Source of the DNA: a virus
Direction: 5' to 3' (one strand)
DNA: 26,536 bases
Virus record (IMG/VR): IMGVR_UViG_3300027973_000194
Coordinates: 1-26,536 of that record
The translations under genes and the position numbers were made by a program. The notes under the pieces were generated by a model. The model searched no databases, had not been told where the DNA came from, and was given only the letters and a program-made list of their open reading frames with translations. Position 1 is the stretch's first letter; every line of letters begins with the position of its first letter. Shown in pieces: positions 2,609 to 14,843 of the stretch.

Positions 2609-3136
2609 TTATTGTTCTTTATAATCTGTTTGGTAAGGATTTGTTTTTAAGTGTGTTGCTAATTCCCTACACCATTTTCTGTTAGGGATAAACATTATAA
2701 CAGACTTAGCCTTATATTTAGCATTATCCTTAATGTATTTAAAGGACATTCTATATTTGTTCTTACAGTAAACTCTAGTTTTACCTTTAATTTGTTTTAA
2801 TTGTTCAGCAGGTAAGTCACCATATACTTGTTTCCAATGCTCTTTAGTGGCAAGCCAGTCTACTTTATAACATATTCTGTTTACACCACCATCTTCATTA
2901 TATACTATTTTCTGTTTTTTCTTCTGTATTTCAAGATCTCCAAACTTATGTGGGAACTTAAGACTGTAACCTTCCTTGATAATAAGATTCATCATCTTAT
3001 CAAATATATCAGTGAATACTTTATTGTGTGTTTTCTTATCTAATGGAATAGGAGAGAACTGCTTATAGTGATCATATATATCATCATAGCCTAGGTCTAC
3101 ATTAAACTTATTTTTAGAGTTCTTTCTGCTTATCAT
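2609..3136 (-). CDS. IHF/HU-like small DNA-binding or structural protein
   Basis: This 175-aa basic protein contains, at about residues 42-75, a helix followed by 'EGYSLKFPHKFGDLEIQKKK'. That layout mirrors the HU/IHF core, where a helix ending in a gly-containing turn leads to 'V.LPGFG.F.V..R'. crAss-like phages carry a conserved IHF-like protein in this part of the tail module, which fits. The remaining residues are lysine/tyrosine-rich ('KTRVYCKNKYRMSFKYIK'), consistent with nucleic-acid contact. The start ATG (3136-3134) overlaps the TAA stop of the preceding gene by one base (TAATG), which points to coupled translation. The classical HU DNA-binding arm and its conserved proline motif are not clearly seen, so a structural non-DNA-binding role is possible. 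Confidence 0.5.
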   Translation of the reverse strand: MISRKNSKNKFNVDLGYDDIYDHYKQFSPIPLDKKTHNKVFTDIFDKMMNLIIKEGYSLKFPHKFGDLEIQKKKQKIVYNEDGGVNRICYKVDWLATKEHWKQVYGDLPAEQLKQIKGKTRVYCKNKYRMSFKYIKDNAKYKAKSVIMFIPNRKWCRELATHLKTNPYQTDYKEQ

Positions 3137-3894
3137 TAGTCTTGTTGTTGTCTATTTTGACCAGGATCTGTACCCGCTTGGGTAAAGTTTGCTGCTACAC
3201 TAGGGATATTATCATCCTTAGAGTTGTTATTTTGATCTATATAAAGGGTTCTCTTAGTTCTCAATTCATTAAGAACAGCTGGTTTAACAAGTGTTTGCCA
3301 CATCCAAAAGTTAATTGGATAGCGTGAATTCCAATCAAAGCATGGTTTTTGAGTTTCACAGTTAATAAATAAACCTGCTTGAGTAGGATCCTCAAACACT
3401 CCTTGTAGATTTACATACTGTAATAGCTTATTAAAGTTACCTTTGTTGTATACTATATATAAATAGTTGTTTTTAAGGAATGCTCCTAGAGCTTTGGTAT
3501 TGTATCTACCATTACCATAATAAACAGCATGGTCATAATCCATAAAATAAATAGGAATAGACATAAAATCCACGGAGCTAATTCTCGTAATAGTTTTTTC
3601 ATGATTTAATTCAATGGCATTAGGTATTGGTTGCTTGCTTTTTAGTATTTTACAATCTACAAATACCTCACAGCATCTATCAGATTGCCTATTAACTAAG
3701 TCAAGCTCAACACAACCTAAGTCTTGAATGATATTATCATCAATACTCCTGTTTTTATTATGCTCTTTTCTGATCCAATTAGCCCTTTCTTGATTAATAA
3801 GGTCTTTAATTAGACGTTTATCTAATGTAGTATCATCAGCTGTTATCTGAAGATCTTCATAGATTTGGTAAATCATCTGGTTTAAACTAATCAT
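3136..3894 (-). CDS. Putative crAss-like virion/tail-neck protein
   Basis: This 252-aa protein opens MISLNQMIYQIYEDLQITAD and then 'DKRLIKDLINQERANWIRKE', a helical N-terminus of the kind found in phage head-tail connector and ring proteins, followed by a beta-rich middle. The C-terminus (about residues 222-252) is low-complexity, with N, D and Q runs, and probably disordered. I recall similar proteins in the crAss-like tail module beside the IHF-like and stabilisation genes, but cannot name the exact homologue. It overlaps the upstream spanin-like gene by 8 bases and the downstream gene by one base, so it belongs to the same transcript. Two central cysteine pairs are present ('DRCCEVFVDC'). 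Confidence 0.5.
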   Translation of the reverse strand: MISLNQMIYQIYEDLQITADDTTLDKRLIKDLINQERANWIRKEHNKNRSIDDNIIQDLGCVELDLVNRQSDRCCEVFVDCKILKSKQPIPNAIELNHEKTITRISSVDFMSIPIYFMDYDHAVYYGNGRYNTKALGAFLKNNYLYIVYNKGNFNKLLQYVNLQGVFEDPTQAGLFINCETQKPCFDWNSRYPINFWMWQTLVKPAVLNELRTKRTLYIDQNNNSKDDNIPSVAANFTQAGTDPGQNRQQQD

Positions 3895-4471
3895 GATCTC
3901 TATTTAATTGATAAGAAAAACCTACCATAACTGACTTAGTTAATGGTAAATAATTTAGTTGGTAAATATAACCTTTTTTATGATAATATGATATACCTAC
4001 ACCTGCTTCAAAAGTGTTTAGGTACTGACTGCCAAGTAATATACCATTAATTGCAAGTATGTTCTTGGTAGTTTTAACATACCTAATAACACTATCTGTG
4101 TGTGTAATGGTTGTAATTACTTCTTTAGGTACCTTTAGTTTATACTTAAAATCAGAAGCTACTAGGTCACCATCAACCTTATTGATAAAGGTAGCATCTA
4201 GATTACTATCACTATACTCTTTAGTGTATACATTTAACAGAGTATCTTCATAATATGTAGGTACTGGTATAGGTATTTCTAAAGTAACATACTTAGTAAC
4301 AGTATCTAACTTAACTACAGTAGTAGTATCAGATGTTCTGATTACTTCAGTTTTAATAACTTCCCTTGGTTCTGTAGGACAAGACTTATGACACTGTTGT
4401 AATAAGAATAGCAAAGCTAGCAATACAAGTATTGTAACTCTTTCAATAGTAAACCAAGATTTCTTTTTCAT
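3887..4471 (-). CDS. Spanin-like single-pass membrane protein of the lysis cassette
   Basis: The protein is 194 aa from ATG 4471, which overlaps the TGA stop of the peptidase gene as ATGA; an in-frame TTG nine bases upstream is less likely. It has a short cytoplasmic KKK segment, one membrane segment ('VTILVLLALLFLLQ', about residues 10-23), then cysteines, then a long periplasmic part rich in threonine and valine ('VIRTSDTTTVVKLDTVTKYV'). The last 50 residues alternate hydrophobic and polar residues with aromatics ('GVGISYYHKKGYIYQLNYLP'), resembling strands of an outer-membrane protein. Position right after holin and endolysin candidates suggests a spanin that links inner and outer membranes. 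This is inferred from topology and context, not from a recognised family. Confidence 0.5.
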   Translation of the reverse strand: MKKKSWFTIERVTILVLLALLFLLQQCHKSCPTEPREVIKTEVIRTSDTTTVVKLDTVTKYVTLEIPIPVPTYYEDTLLNVYTKEYSDSNLDATFINKVDGDLVASDFKYKLKVPKEVITTITHTDSVIRYVKTTKNILAINGILLGSQYLNTFEAGVGISYYHKKGYIYQLNYLPLTKSVMVGFSYQLNRDHD

Positions 4472-4980
4472 AGTGCCCAAGCTTTGTATAGTGTTTTCTT
4501 ACCAGATTTATATGCTCTAAGAACCTGGTTCCTGTTCTTACCTTCACAGTAAGAGATATGCACCCATGAAGGGTTATCATCAGTACCAAATTCTAATATA
4601 CACTGATCAAACTCAAAAGATGGATCACTTGATAGTTCTTTAATAACTGTTACAATAGAACCATTAAACTCTTTACTATCCTTAATAAAGTTAATATCAG
4701 CAGCTTGCCCATAACAATGTTGAGAAGTTTGTACAGGTTTACCATTAATTACTGTATATGCTCCACCTATCTTAGCATTTAATCTAGGACATCTGTAGCC
4801 AGAAGTTACTGTAATACTTCCTTTTAGACAATCTCTAATTGGCTGTAGTACTTTAGTACAGAGCAATGTTAGGTTGTTTATAATATCTTGTGGAGGATTA
4901 AATTGCTCATCAAATCCCCACCTTACTGCTGATGGTGATTTAACCATTTCAGACAGTACAAAATTTCTACTCAGTTTCAT
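4468..4980 (-). CDS. Endolysin: M15-family peptidase (D-Ala-D-Ala carboxypeptidase-like)
   Basis: This 170-aa protein shows the zinc peptidase signature of the M15 family: 'TSGYRCP' at residues 59-65, 'SQHCYGQAADI' at 86-97 (metal ligands His88 and Asp96 expected), and 'WVHISY' at 139-144 (third ligand His141). The N-terminal part ('FVLSEMVKSPSA..WG..') matches the start typical of the M15_3 phage group. These enzymes cut peptide cross-links in peptidoglycan and serve as endolysins. No signal peptide is seen, so release across the inner membrane would depend on a holin, and a holin-like gene overlaps it directly upstream by 14 bases. Length is normal for a single-domain M15 endolysin, with no separate cell-wall-binding domain. 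Confidence 0.88.
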   Translation of the reverse strand: MKLSRNFVLSEMVKSPSAVRWGFDEQFNPPQDIINNLTLLCTKVLQPIRDCLKGSITVTSGYRCPRLNAKIGGAYTVINGKPVQTSQHCYGQAADINFIKDSKEFNGSIVTVIKELSSDPSFEFDQCILEFGTDDNPSWVHISYCEGKNRNQVLRAYKSGKKTLYKAWAL

Positions 4981-5221
4981 TTTTTACATCTTTGTTTTTA
5001 ATTTTTGTTAATCCCATTCCTCCCAATATTACAGAAGTCATTGTTATCATAGCATATTCTACCAATGCTTTATTTGGTATTTCATTCTTCTTATAAAGTA
5101 CAATTCCTAATGTAATAGCAAACATTATTACAAAAGCAAATACAGTAAGTCTTTTATGATCTATCTTACCAGTGCTACCTTTAAGAGATTCTATGAACAT
5201 TTGTTTAATTTTGTTTAACAT
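4967..5221 (-). CDS. Putative holin (two membrane segments)
   Basis: This 84-aa protein has a basic N-terminus (MLNKIKQMFIESLKGSTGKI) and two hydrophobic segments at about residues 26-43 ('LTVFAFVIMFAITLGIVL') and 57-72 ('AMITMTSVILGGMGL'), followed by a charged tail. Size and topology fit a class II phage holin, which forms lesions in the inner membrane to let the endolysin reach the wall. The start overlaps the end of the upstream 102-aa gene by 17 bases and its end overlaps the M15 peptidase start by 14 bases, which supports a lysis cassette. No holin family motif can be confirmed by eye; another small membrane protein is the alternative. Confidence 0.65.
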   Translation of the reverse strand: MLNKIKQMFIESLKGSTGKIDHKRLTVFAFVIMFAITLGIVLYKKNEIPNKALVEYAMITMTSVILGGMGLTKIKNKDVKNETE

Positions 5222-5513
5222 GTTGTTTAAGTTCTACTTTAAGTCTTTCTATTTCAATTGCTTGTCTTAAATTCTCTTGTTCTAGTTCAGCTATTCTTTT
5301 AGTTAGTTTTTCCTCAATCAAATAAGATTGTTCTTCCTTTTGCTCTAGAATGTTTATCTTTTTCTCTAGTCTTTCAATTTCACTGTAAAGTTTAGCATGT
5401 ATTTCAGAATACATCTCTACAGCATCTTTCTTCTTACTAAAAAGTCTAGGAATAGTCACTGTTAAAATAGCAGATCCTAGTGCAATTAAGGCTACAAGAA
5501 TAGGTTGTTCCAT
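5205..5513 (-). CDS. Small membrane protein with coiled coil (lysis-associated)
   Basis: This 102-aa protein has one N-terminal membrane segment (about residues 5-24, 'ILVALIALGSAILTVTIPRL') followed by 'FSKKKDA' and an almost continuous heptad-type coiled coil from about residue 30 to 98, rich in E, K, L and I. This layout matches inner-membrane lysis accessory proteins such as antiholins, i-spanins or class III holin-like proteins. The positive stretch just after the membrane segment would place the coiled coil in the cytoplasm by the positive-inside rule, which argues against an i-spanin and for a holin modulator. It is the first gene of the cassette and overlaps the holin-like gene. Confidence 0.5.
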   Translation of the reverse strand: MEQPILVALIALGSAILTVTIPRLFSKKKDAVEMYSEIHAKLYSEIERLEKKINILEQKEEQSYLIEEKLTKRIAELEQENLRQAIEIERLKVELKQHVKQN

Positions 5514-5521
5514 AGGTTAGG

Positions 5522-6070
5522 TTATTTAATTAATGTTACTCTGCCAATCTTCTCATGGTTTTTATTGTTTATATCTTTATAGTATATCTTGTATGTATAT
5601 ACATCATCCTCACAAGCTCTATTATTATAGGAACCATTCCACCTTTTATTAAGATCATGTGACATAAAAATCATTTCTCCCCACCTATTCCAAATAGCCA
5701 TCTTAAATTCAACTATGTTTATTCCATAAGCTCCAAACTCTTCATTATCATTATCACCATTTGGTGTAAATGCTGTTGGTATCCATATAAATGTTTCCTT
5801 ACATTCAATAATTTTTATTACTATTTTGTTATCTGAATAGCATGCATCATTACTAAAGGTAGCTGTTATTACATAAGTACCTAAATCTCTAAAGGTAATT
5901 GTCATAACATCATTATTTACTTGGTATGGTATTAAAGGCATAACACTCCAACTAATATTAGATGAAGTGCTAGCTCTTATTTCCTTCTGAATCTCAGCAC
6001 CACATAATTCATATACAGGCTGTGCACTCAGTTTGATACTTATAAATAATAATAGTATGATATATTTCAT
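5522..6070 (-). CDS. Secreted protein with type B type IX secretion (CHU_C / gliding-motility) C-terminal sorting domain
   Basis: The protein is 182 aa from ATG 6070, whose A is also the last base of the preceding gene's TGA; a TTG three bases upstream is less likely. It has a clear signal peptide ('MKYIILLLFISIKLSAQ'), an Ig/PKD-like domain ending near residue 90, then a full CHU_C domain: 'IPTAFTPNGDNDNEEF' near residues 97-112, 'IWNRWGEMIF' at 126-135, 'WNGSYN' at 144-149, 'DVYTYKIYYKD' at 156-166, and the typical end 'GRVTLIK'. In Bacteroidota this domain directs proteins that crossed the inner membrane by Sec through the type IX system to the surface. In a phage this implies use of host secretion, probably for surface display late in infection. 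The catalytic or binding role is unknown. Confidence 0.88.
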   Translation of the reverse strand: MKYIILLLFISIKLSAQPVYELCGAEIQKEIRASTSSNISWSVMPLIPYQVNNDVMTITFRDLGTYVITATFSNDACYSDNKIVIKIIECKETFIWIPTAFTPNGDNDNEEFGAYGINIVEFKMAIWNRWGEMIFMSHDLNKRWNGSYNNRACEDDVYTYKIYYKDINNKNHEKIGRVTLIK

Positions 6071-6630
6071 CAATCAGTATATATAACTCCAGTGGGCAGT
6101 GGTTCTACAGTTACAGTACCAGTACCAGTAACAGGACAACCATTAGCAGTTTGTGATGTTACAGTAATAGTATAAGTTCCTGGTGCCAATCCTGCTGGAT
6201 TAAATGTTGTTCCTGAAACTCCTGTACCACTAAATACAGGATTAATACCTAGGTTTTGTCCTGTAATATTCTGTACAAGACCACCTTCACATACTACAAT
6301 AGGATTGACAGTAGCCTGTACAATATTCTGTACTGTAATTTGAGCAGTAGTTGTAAACTGACAACCAGCAGCGTTAGTCTCAATCATTGTCATAGTATAC
6401 ACACCAGGTATAGTCCAAGTAACTTGGATCTGCTGAGAAGCAGCAGTAAATGGTTGTGCAGGTACAATGCTAAATTGATAAGTTGAGGTAGGATCAATAA
6501 CTTGATCTCCATAAAAATGGGTTTCATTTGGACAAACAGTCTGACCATTAGCAGCATTAGGTGTTGGTACTTGACAATAAGCTGTTAAACTAGTCAATAA
6601 AATAATAATTGAGAATAGCAAATTTTTCAT
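6070..6630 (-). CDS. Secreted Ig/PKD-like repeat protein
   Basis: This 186-aa protein starts with a good signal peptide ('MKNLLFSIIILLTSLTAYCQ'), followed by two Ig/PKD-like domains: one with 'GQTVCPNETHFYGDQ' and 'PGVYTMTMIETNAAGC', the second with 'VVCEGGLVQNITG' and 'APGTYTITVTSQTANGCPVTGTGTVTV'. The 'GTYTITVT...GC' strand pattern is typical of Bacteroidota surface proteins that end in a type IX sorting domain. Here the reading frame stops right after the second domain with 'LPTGVIYTD', and the sorting domain lies in the next gene, whose start codon overlaps this stop (TGATG). The two products may act as partners. It has a promoter-like TATATTTG box 14 bases upstream of its start. Confidence 0.75.
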   Translation of the reverse strand: MKNLLFSIIILLTSLTAYCQVPTPNAANGQTVCPNETHFYGDQVIDPTSTYQFSIVPAQPFTAASQQIQVTWTIPGVYTMTMIETNAAGCQFTTTAQITVQNIVQATVNPIVVCEGGLVQNITGQNLGINPVFSGTGVSGTTFNPAGLAPGTYTITVTSQTANGCPVTGTGTVTVEPLPTGVIYTD

Positions 6631-6678: not shown

Positions 6679-7620
6679 CTAGTCTGAGTGTATAATTGGA
6701 AGGTTATAGGTGTTAGTATCCACATTAACAGTATCATAATATTCTATAGTGTTAGATCCACAGTTATATATAACTTCAGCTATATATGAACCTGAGTCAC
6801 AAACTACTATCTGAGGGTTATCTGTTATAAAATTACCATTACTATCTAACCAGCTAAACACACTATTAACCACACCATTAGGTGTAAACCTCCAAGCTTC
6901 AGGAGTATTGATTGTATAGTTTGCAGTATTTCTACCTATAGGTGCGTAAGCTGTGTTACCTGCTGTATTCTGAATACCAAGACATGCTCTACCACCATTC
7001 CAAGTATTGCAAGTTTGCTTTCTTTCTACATGAACTTCAATAACATTAGTTAGTTCATATAGGATTATTTGGAATTTAGACCTCTGTTGTGAGCAACTAA
7101 AGTGTGGAATATCATTAAAACTAACTACTAATTTTCTACATGGATATACACCTGTAACACCATATCTAACTTCACCACCTAATGATGGGTCTATATCATG
7201 GTAAAGTCCTATCATTGATCTTGGAAAATTAGCTGCTGCTGTTGGAATGCTAGCAGTAAATGCCCAAGGTGAGAATTGGTTTGAATAAGCTAAATTAAAA
7301 CTAATAACACCATTTGTACTAATAACATATTGGGTATAAGTTTGATTGAAAAAACAGAACTCAAATGGTAGATTTACAGTAGTAGACCATCTATCATCAA
7401 TAGCTATATTGTATATAGTACCAGTTGTATATGGTAATGGGCTGTATGGTATTGGTGTTATTAAATAAGAATCTGTAACTCTAGTTTGGGTGTAGTTAGC
7501 TGTTAATGTCTGACAGTCATTACAGTTAAGAGTTACATCATTACCTGCATTAACTACATTACATTGAGACTGTATTGCATTACTTATGATTAATAGAATT
7601 ATACTTATTAAGTACTTCAT
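6679..7620 (-). CDS. Secreted adhesin-like protein with flavobacterial nidogen-type surface module
   Basis: Start chosen at ATG 7620, giving 313 aa and a clean signal peptide ('MKYLISIILLIISNAIQSQ'); ATG 7638 in the same frame adds six residues. After a short Cys-containing segment comes a module spanning about residues 70-245, with 'STNGVISFN', 'GLYHDIDPSLGGEVRYGV', 'VVSFNDIPHFSCSQQRS', 'IILYELTNVIEVHVERK', 'TWNGGRACLGIQN' and 'PEAWRFTPNG'. I recall this combination from large flavobacterial surface proteins that end in a CHU_C domain. An Ig-like tail follows ('SWLDSNGNFI', 'YIAEVIYNCG'). The stop is TAG. It overlaps the preceding secreted gene by 41 bases. A host origin by transfer is likely; function may be adhesion or surface coating. 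Confidence 0.75.
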   Translation of the reverse strand: MKYLISIILLIISNAIQSQCNVVNAGNDVTLNCNDCQTLTANYTQTRVTDSYLITPIPYSPLPYTTGTIYNIAIDDRWSTTVNLPFEFCFFNQTYTQYVISTNGVISFNLAYSNQFSPWAFTASIPTAAANFPRSMIGLYHDIDPSLGGEVRYGVTGVYPCRKLVVSFNDIPHFSCSQQRSKFQIILYELTNVIEVHVERKQTCNTWNGGRACLGIQNTAGNTAYAPIGRNTANYTINTPEAWRFTPNGVVNSVFSWLDSNGNFITDNPQIVVCDSGSYIAEVIYNCGSNTIEYYDTVNVDTNTYNLPIIHSD

Positions 7621-8053
7621 ATAAATAGGTTGTATCATTGATATATACTAGATAAGAGTTATCTGTAACAATGTTTCTAATCATTATTTTATTAATAAAA
7701 TGGTTTTTTAACCAGTTTACTTCATATGAATTTAGATTAAAATATGCTATTATTTCACAAGATAATCTTCTAATACTGTAGGTAGATAGTGAGTCTCCTC
7801 CAGATATAAATGTCACATATGTTGAATCTGTGCATCTACTAGTTAATGGATCTCCCCTTCTAAATGAAATATGCTTAAATCCTATAGTATCTTTATAGTA
7901 AATCTTTATAGTCTGTACATACCAATACTTCTCACCCATCTCTAGATTTTCAACAATAGGTTGTATCTTAATATCTTTCTGTACTAAGGGTTCAGGTTGT
8001 TGAGCTGTTAGTATTATTGATACAAGAGCTAAAGCAAAAACTAGATATTTCAT
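7580..8053 (-). CDS. Secreted hypothetical protein
   Basis: This 157-aa protein starts with a signal peptide ('MKYLVFALALVSIILTAQQ', cleavage probably before the QQPEP stretch). The mature part is beta-rich, with 'YWYVQTIKIYYKDTIGFKHI' and 'DSTYVTFISGGDSLSTY', two cysteines that could pair, and a tyrosine/asparagine-rich end. No sorting domain, lipobox or membrane anchor is visible, so the periplasm is its expected place unless it binds another secreted product. It is the first of four consecutive signal-peptide genes and begins two bases after the stop of the 612-aa fibre candidate. I do not recognise the family. Roles such as superinfection exclusion or a chaperone for the next gene are only possibilities. 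Confidence 0.65.
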   Translation of the reverse strand: MKYLVFALALVSIILTAQQPEPLVQKDIKIQPIVENLEMGEKYWYVQTIKIYYKDTIGFKHISFRRGDPLTSRCTDSTYVTFISGGDSLSTYSIRRLSCEIIAYFNLNSYEVNWLKNHFINKIMIRNIVTDNSYLVYINDTTYLYEVLNKYNSINHK

Positions 8054-12327: not shown

Positions 12328-13605
12328 TTATCTTACTAATTTATCAATATGTGCTATAATTTTACTTACGTCGTTATTAGATAAACACTCTTGACTAGCT
12401 GTAGTTTCTTCACAAGGGTTATCGTTAACAAATGGTCCAATATTACCTTCTTCAAAAGTACCTGAATAAGGAACTAATGTAGGATCTACACCAGTTTGAA
12501 AAAAAGCACTTTGTTTAACCCAGTTTGTATAAACTTCATCAAGCTCATAATTATATTGTATTTCAAATATTTGAGTATTATAAAAAGCAAATGAATTTTC
12601 AGGTGGGCTTATTTGAATTCTATAAAAATTTGGAGTGGTTCCAGAATTTATATACTCAAAAATAAAAGGTTGACAATTAGCATTTAATACATCAACTATT
12701 TGCTCAATATTTAAGTAATTAACAAAACTAGTGTCTTCGTAAAGTACACCATCATTATTTGTAATGTATATTTTACCTTGTGTATCTACTCCATTTAACT
12801 CTAACAAAAGTGTTCTAAAACTAAGAATACCTGTTGGACTAGGATCATTACCACCTTCATATTGACTAAATTCCACACTATAAGAAGTATAATCCGTATT
12901 ATCAATAGCTGAAACTACTACATAATTAGTTCCGTCATAATACAATGTCCAATTAGGATATGTAGTATTCCAAAGTTCAATAATAGCATCTGTATCATTC
13001 ATAATATTTGCAGGAATATTTAAAGATTCAATTACTGTTACACCATCATAAATAGTTATATTACCTTCCCAATTACCATAAACATTATTTACTGTGACAG
13101 CTGGTTCTTCTATTTCTTCAATAATAGCCACTTCAACAGGTGATATTGTATCAGTATTAAAACTACAGTTTTCTGTAAAGGTTATATTATTTAGGTTTAA
13201 AACAATAGGTTCATCTGTAATTGAATCTAGTATAGTAGTAAATTTAATTTCTATCATTTGATTATCATGATCATAAAAATAAATAAAAGGGTAACTTGTA
13301 TTATTGTAATACATGCTTCCACTATTATCACAACCAAATTGAATCTTAGTCTCAGTTACTTCTGAAAGGTCATTTAATAATACAGTATAGTCACCTTCTA
13401 CACAACAATGGCAGGTAATAGTGCTACCTACTATTGTGAAGTTTCTAAGTATATCTATATAAGCTCTAAGTAATCTTATTTCTTTGAAAAGACAAGTATT
13501 GTTTATACCTACAACTAATCCACCATAGTATTTAACGGATTTTAAAGCTAAACTGTAGAATGCTTTAATTATAGCTACTTGTATTTTTAATGGTGTTAGT
13601 ATCAT
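12328..13605 (-). CDS. Hypothetical virion appendage protein
   Basis: Start set at ATG 13605 (425 aa), because this codon overlaps the TGA stop of the preceding collagen-like gene as ATGA; a TTG 27 bases upstream in the same frame is less plausible. The N-terminal 60 residues are helical ('IQVAIIKAFYSLALKSVKYY'), followed by a Cys-rich piece ('STITCHCCVEGDYTVLLNDL') and then beta-rich, Asn/Tyr/Thr-rich sequence with repeated 'NWTLYYDGTNYVVVS'-type strands, suggesting Ig-like or jelly-roll domains. The C-terminus has 'CEETTASQECLSNNDVSKII'. No signal peptide is seen. Between the collagen-like gene and the tail fibre, a base-plate or fibre-connector role is likely, but I do not recognise the family. 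Confidence 0.55.
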   Translation of the reverse strand: MILTPLKIQVAIIKAFYSLALKSVKYYGGLVVGINNTCLFKEIRLLRAYIDILRNFTIVGSTITCHCCVEGDYTVLLNDLSEVTETKIQFGCDNSGSMYYNNTSYPFIYFYDHDNQMIEIKFTTILDSITDEPIVLNLNNITFTENCSFNTDTISPVEVAIIEEIEEPAVTVNNVYGNWEGNITIYDGVTVIESLNIPANIMNDTDAIIELWNTTYPNWTLYYDGTNYVVVSAIDNTDYTSYSVEFSQYEGGNDPSPTGILSFRTLLLELNGVDTQGKIYITNNDGVLYEDTSFVNYLNIEQIVDVLNANCQPFIFEYINSGTTPNFYRIQISPPENSFAFYNTQIFEIQYNYELDEVYTNWVKQSAFFQTGVDPTLVPYSGTFEEGNIGPFVNDNPCEETTASQECLSNNDVSKIIAHIDKLVR

Positions 13606-14012
13606 GGATATATTCTTATTTCTATTGGGCAACCATTTAATCTATTATCTTGAGTCGTTAAAAACTCTTTATCATAAGTATTAATTAATAAATTATTAGT
13701 ATTTGAATAACTTATTTCAACCGCACTTGTGCCATTATCTAAATTAAAAACTGGATTAGGTGGATAAAATACAGCTATTTTATTCTGCACAAAAATGCCT
13801 CCTGTAACTATCAAAGAATAACTACCTTCTGCTGTTCTTGAAAATGTAGGAGTTTCTTCAATTGTATTTTCCAAAACAATTGCAGTAGGTGCAGCATCAT
13901 CAACTTGAGTTAACAAAGCAGTATATATTTTATAAGGTAATTCACCTGCTGGTCCTTGTGGTCCAGTTGGTCCTGGAGGACCAATTGGTAATTCTGAGTT
14001 ATAGCATCCCAT
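13602..14012 (-). CDS. Collagen-like fibre protein
   Basis: This 136-aa protein opens MGCYNSELPIGPPGPTGPQG and continues PAGELP, a run of five Gly-X-Y triplets near residues 11-25. After this comes a compact beta-rich domain of about 110 residues ('DDAAPTAIVLENTIEETPTF', 'GSYSLIVTGGIFVQNKIAVF', 'CPIEIRIYP'). A Gly-X-Y stretch suggests a short collagen triple helix that holds three copies together, with the globular part as a C-terminal knob; this is a known design in phage fibres. It lies between another collagen-like gene and the 425-aa appendage gene, which it overlaps by four bases. Head-fibre or tail-fibre placement cannot be told from the sequence. Confidence 0.65.
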   Translation of the reverse strand: MGCYNSELPIGPPGPTGPQGPAGELPYKIYTALLTQVDDAAPTAIVLENTIEETPTFSRTAEGSYSLIVTGGIFVQNKIAVFYPPNPVFNLDNGTSAVEISYSNTNNLLINTYDKEFLTTQDNRLNGCPIEIRIYP

Positions 14013-14024
14013 AGTTTATAGTTT

Positions 14025-14843
14025 TTAAATGTAAGGTGTGTAATATTTTAATATTTGAGTAATTTGTATTGCAGGTTCAAAATCAGCATTAGTACCAAAA
14101 CTTATTTGAAAGTCAGAAGAATCAGTTACTGAATAGCTGCTATTTATAATCCAAGATTTTTGAACATAAAAACAATCTCCAAAAGTATCACTTTGAACAC
14201 AATATGCATAAATAGTTCCATATACTTTTAAAAATGTAGAAGTAACTCTTTCTATTTTCAAAGATCCTTTTACAACATTAGGTTGTTCTATACTTGGGTA
14301 TCCTGAAGGAGGACCTGTAGTTGGATCAACATCATATTTAATTTTTGCTTCTCTTAATCCTTGAGTAGATATATCTTTTGAAACACTAAATACTAATTCT
14401 GGTCCTGTACTAGTAATAAGTTGTATAAAAGCTGAGTTCATTGTGTCTGCAAAATCTGCAGGAGAACTTTGAAAATCTAGTGTAATTGATTGACCATTTG
14501 CAGTTAACTGTGTAAAGTTTATGTCAACTGATGTACTTGTACCAGCCCCAACTGCAGATTGGTCATTTAAAATTCTTTCTAATGATACTGGTCCTGCAGG
14601 TCCTTCATCACCTTGTTCACCTTCTGGAATTTCAAAGTTAAAAATAGCATTTGGAGCAACTCCTGTATTTGTTACTGTAGCTGGATCACCAAAAGGTACT
14701 GTATCTACTGTACCTACTGTTATAGTAGGAGTAGTACCATTTACTCCTGGGACTCCTTGGATTCCTTGAGGACCTGGGACACCTTGTGGTCCTCTAGGTA
14801 TTGTTGCTGAATTGCAGTTACAACTGCCTGAACATGAACACAT
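14025..14843 (-). CDS. Collagen-like appendage protein with Cys-rich N-terminus
   Basis: This 272-aa protein begins MCSCSGSCNCNSATIP, with five cysteines within twelve residues, followed by 'RGPQGVPGPQGIQGVPGVNG' (six or more Gly-X-Y triplets, residues about 18-37). A second short triplet run 'GEQGDEGPAGP' lies near residues 73-83. Between the runs is a beta-type domain ('PTITVGTVDTVPFGDPATVT') of the kind found in phage structural proteins. The C-terminal ~170 residues are beta-rich and form the likely knob. Trimeric assembly through collagen helices is expected; the Cys cluster could form inter-chain links or bind metal. The gene starts one base after the preceding gene's stop. Role: head or tail fibre by context. 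Confidence 0.65.
   Translation of the reverse strand: MCSCSGSCNCNSATIPRGPQGVPGPQGIQGVPGVNGTTPTITVGTVDTVPFGDPATVTNTGVAPNAIFNFEIPEGEQGDEGPAGPVSLERILNDQSAVGAGTSTSVDINFTQLTANGQSITLDFQSSPADFADTMNSAFIQLITSTGPELVFSVSKDISTQGLREAKIKYDVDPTTGPPSGYPSIEQPNVVKGSLKIERVTSTFLKVYGTIYAYCVQSDTFGDCFYVQKSWIINSSYSVTDSSDFQISFGTNADFEPAIQITQILKYYTPYI

Follow-up and report, generated by a model that had tools for sequence, protein, structure and literature searches.

A crAss-like phage encodes a type B sorting-domain protein as the anchor of a putative split surface adhesin

Introduction

Why would a tailed phage carry, among its structural and lysis genes, a protein that bears the sorting signal of a bacterial secretion system? 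This question is raised by a 26.5-kb IMG/VR virus record, analyzed here over its whole length of 26,536 nucleotides (the window). A first-pass annotation of this DNA had described a gene whose product carries a signal peptide at one end and a complete type B (CHU_C) sorting domain of the type IX secretion system (T9SS) at the other, had considered the structural/lysis region of a tailed phage an unexpected place for such a domain, and had proposed that the phage displays the protein on the infected cell, with superinfection block, altered gliding adhesins, or surface coating as conceivable purposes. The analysis below is concerned with whether the domain is genuine and phage-encoded, whether the gene acts alone, and what its product might do.

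A complete sorting domain at the end of a short secreted protein

The gene in question, here called the anchor, is read on the minus strand from position 6070 down to 5522 and encodes 182 aa from its ATG, the plus-strand frame of the same interval being full of stops. The profile search that the first-pass annotation had recommended placed both models of the domain above their curated cut-offs: PF13585 (CHU_C) matched residues 97-176 with 51.7 bits (E 1e-13, cut-off 27), and TIGR04131 matched residues 97-180 of 182, the extreme C-terminus, with 47.2 bits (cut-off 35). When the DNA of the window was searched with PF13585, the match was found at 5543-5782 (E 8.5e-16), and none was found in 14 control genomes. 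All sequence landmarks reported earlier (PNGDNDNEEF, NRWGE, RWNGSY, DVYTY, and the terminal GRVTLIK) are present. The Sec-type signal peptide, MKYIILLLFISIKLSAQ, was recognized by eye and is consistent with a helix at residues 2-14 of an AlphaFold2 model; this model (pLDDT 89), the second recommended check, contains two beta domains, an Ig-like domain and the sorting domain. The closest CHU_C domains to that of the anchor come from Flavobacteriales and other Bacteroidota, and TIGR04131 was matched by 20 of 20 anchors tested by profile search. Judged by its sequence, the anchor qualifies as type B cargo of the T9SS, supplied here by a crAss-like phage and with a predicted role in export.

The gene belongs to the phage

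On its gene content, the window is a crAss-like phage, for which Bacteroidota are the putative host group. Besides tail ring protein 2 (Table 1), it encodes a major head protein matching phrog_11589 (E 5e-84) and a terminase matching phrog_6681 (E 4e-124), and its TerL is 32-34% identical to those of gut crAss-like phages. Two proteins of the structural region (13602-14843) have collagen-like Gly-Pro-Gln stretches and are possible virion collagen-like proteins. The reported location in the structural/lysis region is borne out, the anchor lying between tail-fibre-like genes and lysis genes.

A copy of the anchor with 92% identity was found on an independent contig in the same gene order. Ten further relatives of the window phage were collected with ring protein 2 as a query, and a CHU_C gene occupies the same site in 7 of the 7 close crAss-like relatives among them that cover it. 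Together with the 92% identical copy, the survey of crAss-like genomes suggested at first pass thus gives eight of eight close relatives with the anchor gene; two relatives (L012 and L014) whose contigs end before the site were left out of this count, and a distant relative that covers the site (L013) has other genes there and no anchor gene. A chimeric assembly of phage and bacterial DNA, named at first pass as one of two findings that would overturn the claim, might be suspected from the abundance of CHU_C adhesins in Bacteroidota genomes, but it is ruled out by the eight relatives from other contigs that keep the same gene order, and its probability is negligible.

A pattern scan for CHU_C retrieved 59 viral stretches, to which a second, looser scan added more, and in nearly all of the 59 a CHU_C-like protein is matched about 80 residues before its C-terminal end. 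The domain is really phage-encoded, but it is no lone oddity: about 50 viral contigs encode proteins ending in CHU_C, and earlier work had already described T9SS cargo in phages. Some viral ORFs of 107-111 aa consist of approximately a signal peptide and CHU_C alone (L057 431-754, L067 1667-1990, L071 6117-6446, and others in L213 and L230), and these short proteins are candidate decoys of the host type IX system.

The anchor is the last gene of a three-gene module

The anchor closes a same-strand module that also comprises a variable tip and a two-Ig-domain adaptor, the anchor itself being a short protein with one Ig-like domain and CHU_C (Table 1). The adaptor stop and the anchor start share one base (TGATG), and most adaptor and anchor pairs of unrelated phages have the same 1-nt stop/start overlap. 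Both tip and adaptor have signal peptides, lack the sorting domain, and end in a short C-terminal tail of about I-x-[H/T]-[N/D]. AlphaFold2 models (pLDDT about 89) show adaptor and anchor alike as beta sandwiches and leave the tail of the adaptor unpaired; the adaptor also has a PKD_4 match (E 6e-5) that falls below the cut-off. The nidogen-like domain of the window tip has its counterpart in the N-terminal part of bacterial CHU_C adhesins. The tips of relatives differ from that of the window, having 450 or 294 aa, other domains, and the ends AAIYTN or PAIYTN, with an adaptor ending in GIIYTD. When ten tips were compared with Pfam, PKD was found in two and no family in the other eight.

Other crAss-like phages, as well as the phages G081 and G085, carry homologues of a fourth conserved gene, 'sm', close to the module (Table 1). 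By its position, the secreted protein that 'sm' encodes is possibly a periplasmic helper or chaperone.

The module layout was observed in about a dozen unrelated phages, and several of the contigs are clearly phage, with genes for tail sheath, terminase, portal, and head protease. Where a CHU_C protein has about 183-201 aa and an Ig domain, a tailed adaptor-like gene usually lies directly upstream. A search of named phages for parts of the module matched, as phages, only the huge phages LR745206.1 (a fused form) and LR756502.1. The 4.2-kb record MT839536.1 (L363), although deposited as a phage, was set aside because it looks bacterial; by eye, its neighbouring long ORF resembles an excision-nuclease ATPase.

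Table 1. Positions of the module genes, their neighbours, and related ORFs on other contigs (window coordinates unless a contig is named)
Feature	Position	Strand	Description
Tail ring protein 2	3136..3894	minus	PF25702, E 1e-36; marks the contig as crAss-like phage
M15 peptidase (endolysin)	4468..4980	minus	PF08291, E 4e-13
84-aa membrane protein	4967..5221	minus	holin-like, as suggested by position and make-up
102-aa membrane and coiled-coil protein	5205..5513	minus	weakly Rz/spanin-like, E 0.011
Anchor	5522..6070	minus	signal peptide, Ig-like domain (about residues 18-92), CHU_C/TIGR04131 (97-180); no tail
Sorting domain proper of anchor	5525..5782	minus	PF13585 and TIGR04131 matches
Adaptor	6070..6630	minus	signal peptide, two Ig/PKD-like domains, C-terminal tail PLPTGVIYTD
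Adaptor tail	6070..6090	minus	GVIYTD plus stop
Tip	6679..7620 (longer ORF from 7638)	minus	signal peptide, nidogen-like domain, tail NLPIIHSD
'sm'	7580..8053	minus	157 aa, fourth conserved gene; signal peptide, no tail, no known family
'sm' homologues	L006 2430-2897; L275 8707-9192; L277 9819-10316; L069 13979-14533		
CHU_C adhesin ORFs of huge phages	L086 3865-6363; L087 1453-6465; L362 4269-6467		

Tip and adaptor of the same phage share a tail type

The tail is strongly concentrated in the module. Among 922 ORFs of at least 100 aa from 16 phage contigs, 30 end in [IVL].[HT][ND], against 3.2 expected from column frequencies; tips and adaptors account for 28 of these, and 27 are encoded in the module, beside the anchor. 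The exception to this adjacency is a nidogen-like tip of the 174-kb phage G070 (L301 5231-6178), which ends in VELFTD and lies tens of kilobases from the anchor, suggesting that tips need not adjoin it. Adaptor tails of other phages include SPIQHN, GLIEHN, SPIEHD, GVITHD, GPIQHN, GPIIHN, and PTIFTN, among others, and two adaptors have tails outside the motif (IYKQ and ITIQ).

Within a phage, the four C-terminal residues of the tip agree with those of the adaptor: over 17 pairs, the BLOSUM score was 259, compared with a mean of 140 after shuffling (p = 2e-5, or p = 6e-4 with one phage per clade, both values serving as a guide because the shuffles ignore the kinship of adaptors), and 16 of the 17 share the penultimate residue. 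Tips with 59-72% identity to one another differ in their tails from phage to phage, each tail fitting the local adaptor. For example, the tips of G070 (458 aa) and G081 (464 aa) are 66% identical and end in IYTN and INHN, respectively, while the corresponding adaptors end in IFTN and IEHN. Common descent of the tips does not account for the agreement, since homologous tips change tail together with the adaptor of their own phage.

Where the tail might dock was approached with a missing-strand profile test, in which the tail was a candidate for the first strand of the Ig domain of the anchor. The outcome was mixed, the score being better with the tail in 5 of 19 pairs and without it in 12 of 19. 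Columns that separate the two tail types were found at 3 of 74 positions in the Ig domain of the anchor and at 1 of 83 in its CHU_C domain, which is no clear enrichment.

Fused counterparts in huge phages and in bacteria

In the 634-kb phage LR745206.1, a 732-aa CHU_C protein contains tip, adaptor, and anchor fused in that order and without tails, as indicated by 38% identity to the tip and by scores of 101.5 bits with the adaptor profile and 133 bits with the anchor. Long single-chain CHU_C adhesins of 732-1670 aa were observed in huge phages of 634 and 642 kb, where they are unannotated in the records (Table 1). Similarly, in a bacterial protein of 1221 aa (L119), the N-terminal part matches the tip with 41% identity (E 3e-57), the middle of the chain has adaptor-like repeats, and the C-terminus matches the anchor and CHU_C; the parts follow a similar order in bacterial adhesins. 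Parts that are fused in one organism and separate in another usually act together, and the fusion of tip, adaptor, and anchor in one chain elsewhere implies that the three phage genes make one assembly.

In 396 Bacteroidota genomes, for each of which the best eight candidates were scored, the adaptor and anchor profiles matched only inside long frames among the about 150 matches listed, fragments at contig edges excepted; rare exceptions may have been missed. No split tip-adaptor-anchor layout was seen among those matches, and scanning genomes with the full-length anchor gave no close relative in bacteria. The possibility that the split layout is an ordinary bacterial arrangement was rejected on the strength of those matches and because the short CHU_C genes retrieved from bacterial genomes lack a tailed partner. 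Bacterial proteins of 142-146 aa made of a signal peptide and CHU_C, likewise without tailed partners, were noted in L096 (5833-6273) and L116 (5739-6167). In L259, the ORF upstream of a short CHU_C gene ends in RVYTD and encodes a 528-aa protein outside the adaptor/tip family.

Proposed function and alternative explanations

Type B proteins are reported to be held by PorP-like barrels (PMC9143113). No PorP/SprF gene was found in 19 phage contigs, while the same search gave 15 and 17 copies in two bacterial genomes. With type B proteins held by such barrels, and none of these found in the phage contigs, the natural reading is that the anchor reaches the surface by way of the host system. This agrees with the earlier proposal that the phage displays a protein of its own, except that the protein is not displayed singly but would be the anchor of a three-part module. 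We consider it fairly probable that the module encodes a split phage adhesin, joined by its tails and borne on the cell surface by the anchor through the host T9SS, docking and export being predicted steps. Tip, adaptor, and anchor would all reach the periplasm by Sec. There, the tail of the tip would dock on an Ig-like domain of the adaptor or the anchor, and that of the adaptor on the Ig-like domain of the anchor, acting like a missing strand or a peptide tag. The CHU_C domain of the anchor would then take the assembly through the host T9SS, with tip and adaptor piggy-backing, and a host PorP/SprF barrel might retain it on the surface. The wider notion that subunits without a sorting domain ride the T9SS on a small CHU_C carrier by means of a docking tail, and so build a self-assembling surface structure, is more tentative, its chance being in our judgment a little short of even.

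Display probably takes place late in infection, as the module is followed on its strand by the lysis genes. The variable tip may serve adhesion to neighbouring cells or particles, or may mask surface receptors of the host; these roles are favoured because the tip resembles adhesin N-termini and is exchangeable. Interference with surface receptors is a real alternative purpose, since flavobacterial mutants in gliding and the T9SS are resistant to phages (PMC13288928, PMC5682007).

Three other explanations were weighed against the split adhesin. The tail could be recognized by a host factor as a sorting or retention signal in its own right, in which case tip, adaptor, and anchor would each be exported, or stay in the periplasm, on their own. 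Such a signal would fit a short linear motif at the C-terminus of proteins of unrelated fold, and the mixed missing-strand test as well; however, a fixed host reader would favour one motif, whereas the tail type differs between phages and shifts in step in tip and adaptor, nearly all tailed proteins adjoin the anchor gene, and fused versions without tails exist. We regard this explanation as unlikely. Somewhat more doubtful is the idea that the anchor is a decoy made in excess, which fills the T9SS/SprF barrels of the host and blocks the gliding-adhesin receptors of other phages (superinfection exclusion). The small size of the anchor, the phages that encode little beyond a signal peptide and CHU_C, the phage resistance of the mutants cited above, and the lack of a phage SprF in the 19 contigs are all compatible with a decoy, but it leaves unexplained both the conserved tip and adaptor with their matching tails and the fused long versions, and co-linearity with the lysis genes suggests late expression. 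It is also very improbable that the three proteins are virion parts, such as a fibre or capsid decoration, that merely resemble adhesins: although the module lies beside tail-fibre-like and ring-protein genes, the signal peptides on all parts and the intact sorting domain argue for export, and the distance between the G070 tip and its anchor also speaks against this explanation.

If the split-adhesin reading is true, Bacteroidota phages would re-coat the cells they infect by exploiting the adhesin export machine of the host, with a modular kit whose tip is exchangeable provided that its tail fits. The wider notion of subunits riding on a carrier would amount to an export code in two parts, the tail and the CHU_C carrier, that is not known from bacteria. 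The tail-match rule makes the split-adhesin reading directly testable, and the split module offers a handle on type IX export of partner proteins that have no sorting signal.

Comparison with known systems

Phage T9SS cargo is already known. Cryophage encodes T9SS type A cargo, comprising enzymes and a PA14 protein (PMC7468147), and crAss-like cluster 2 has sorting-domain proteins near the head genes (PMC6949934); both resemble the window in having phage genes with T9SS sorting domains, but the accessible parts of these two reports describe no split module or matching tails. No description of such a module was found in the literature searched, chiefly freely readable papers, and the split, tail-matched architecture appears to be new.

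The type B adhesins of Bacteroidota (e.g., SprB) share with the module the signal peptide, the Ig/PKD-like repeats, and the C-terminal CHU_C domain, and their N-terminus is matched by the phage tip. They are mostly single long chains, whereas the phage version consists of three genes with tails, and the genomes that encode them have many PorP/SprF genes, whereas none was found in the phage contigs. The 732-aa protein of LR745206.1 has the same parts in the same order as the window module, but in one chain without tails. A model for retention of the anchor is provided by PG1035 of Porphyromonas gingivalis, a type B protein placed on the surface via a PorP barrel; it is a bacterial gene, compared here by its description, and the available part of that description includes no tip/adaptor partner module (PMC9143113). 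Grappling hook protein A (GhpA) of Aureispira has Ig-like repeats that match the adaptor model (TM 0.50-0.57) and a C-terminus that matches the CHU_C domain of the anchor (E 2e-11), but it is a single chain of 5898 aa that forms heptamers (PMC11205867), so the likeness is limited to fold and sorting domain. In the way that it would work, the module may be compared with donor-strand-assembled pili, in which the free strand of one subunit completes the fold of the next.
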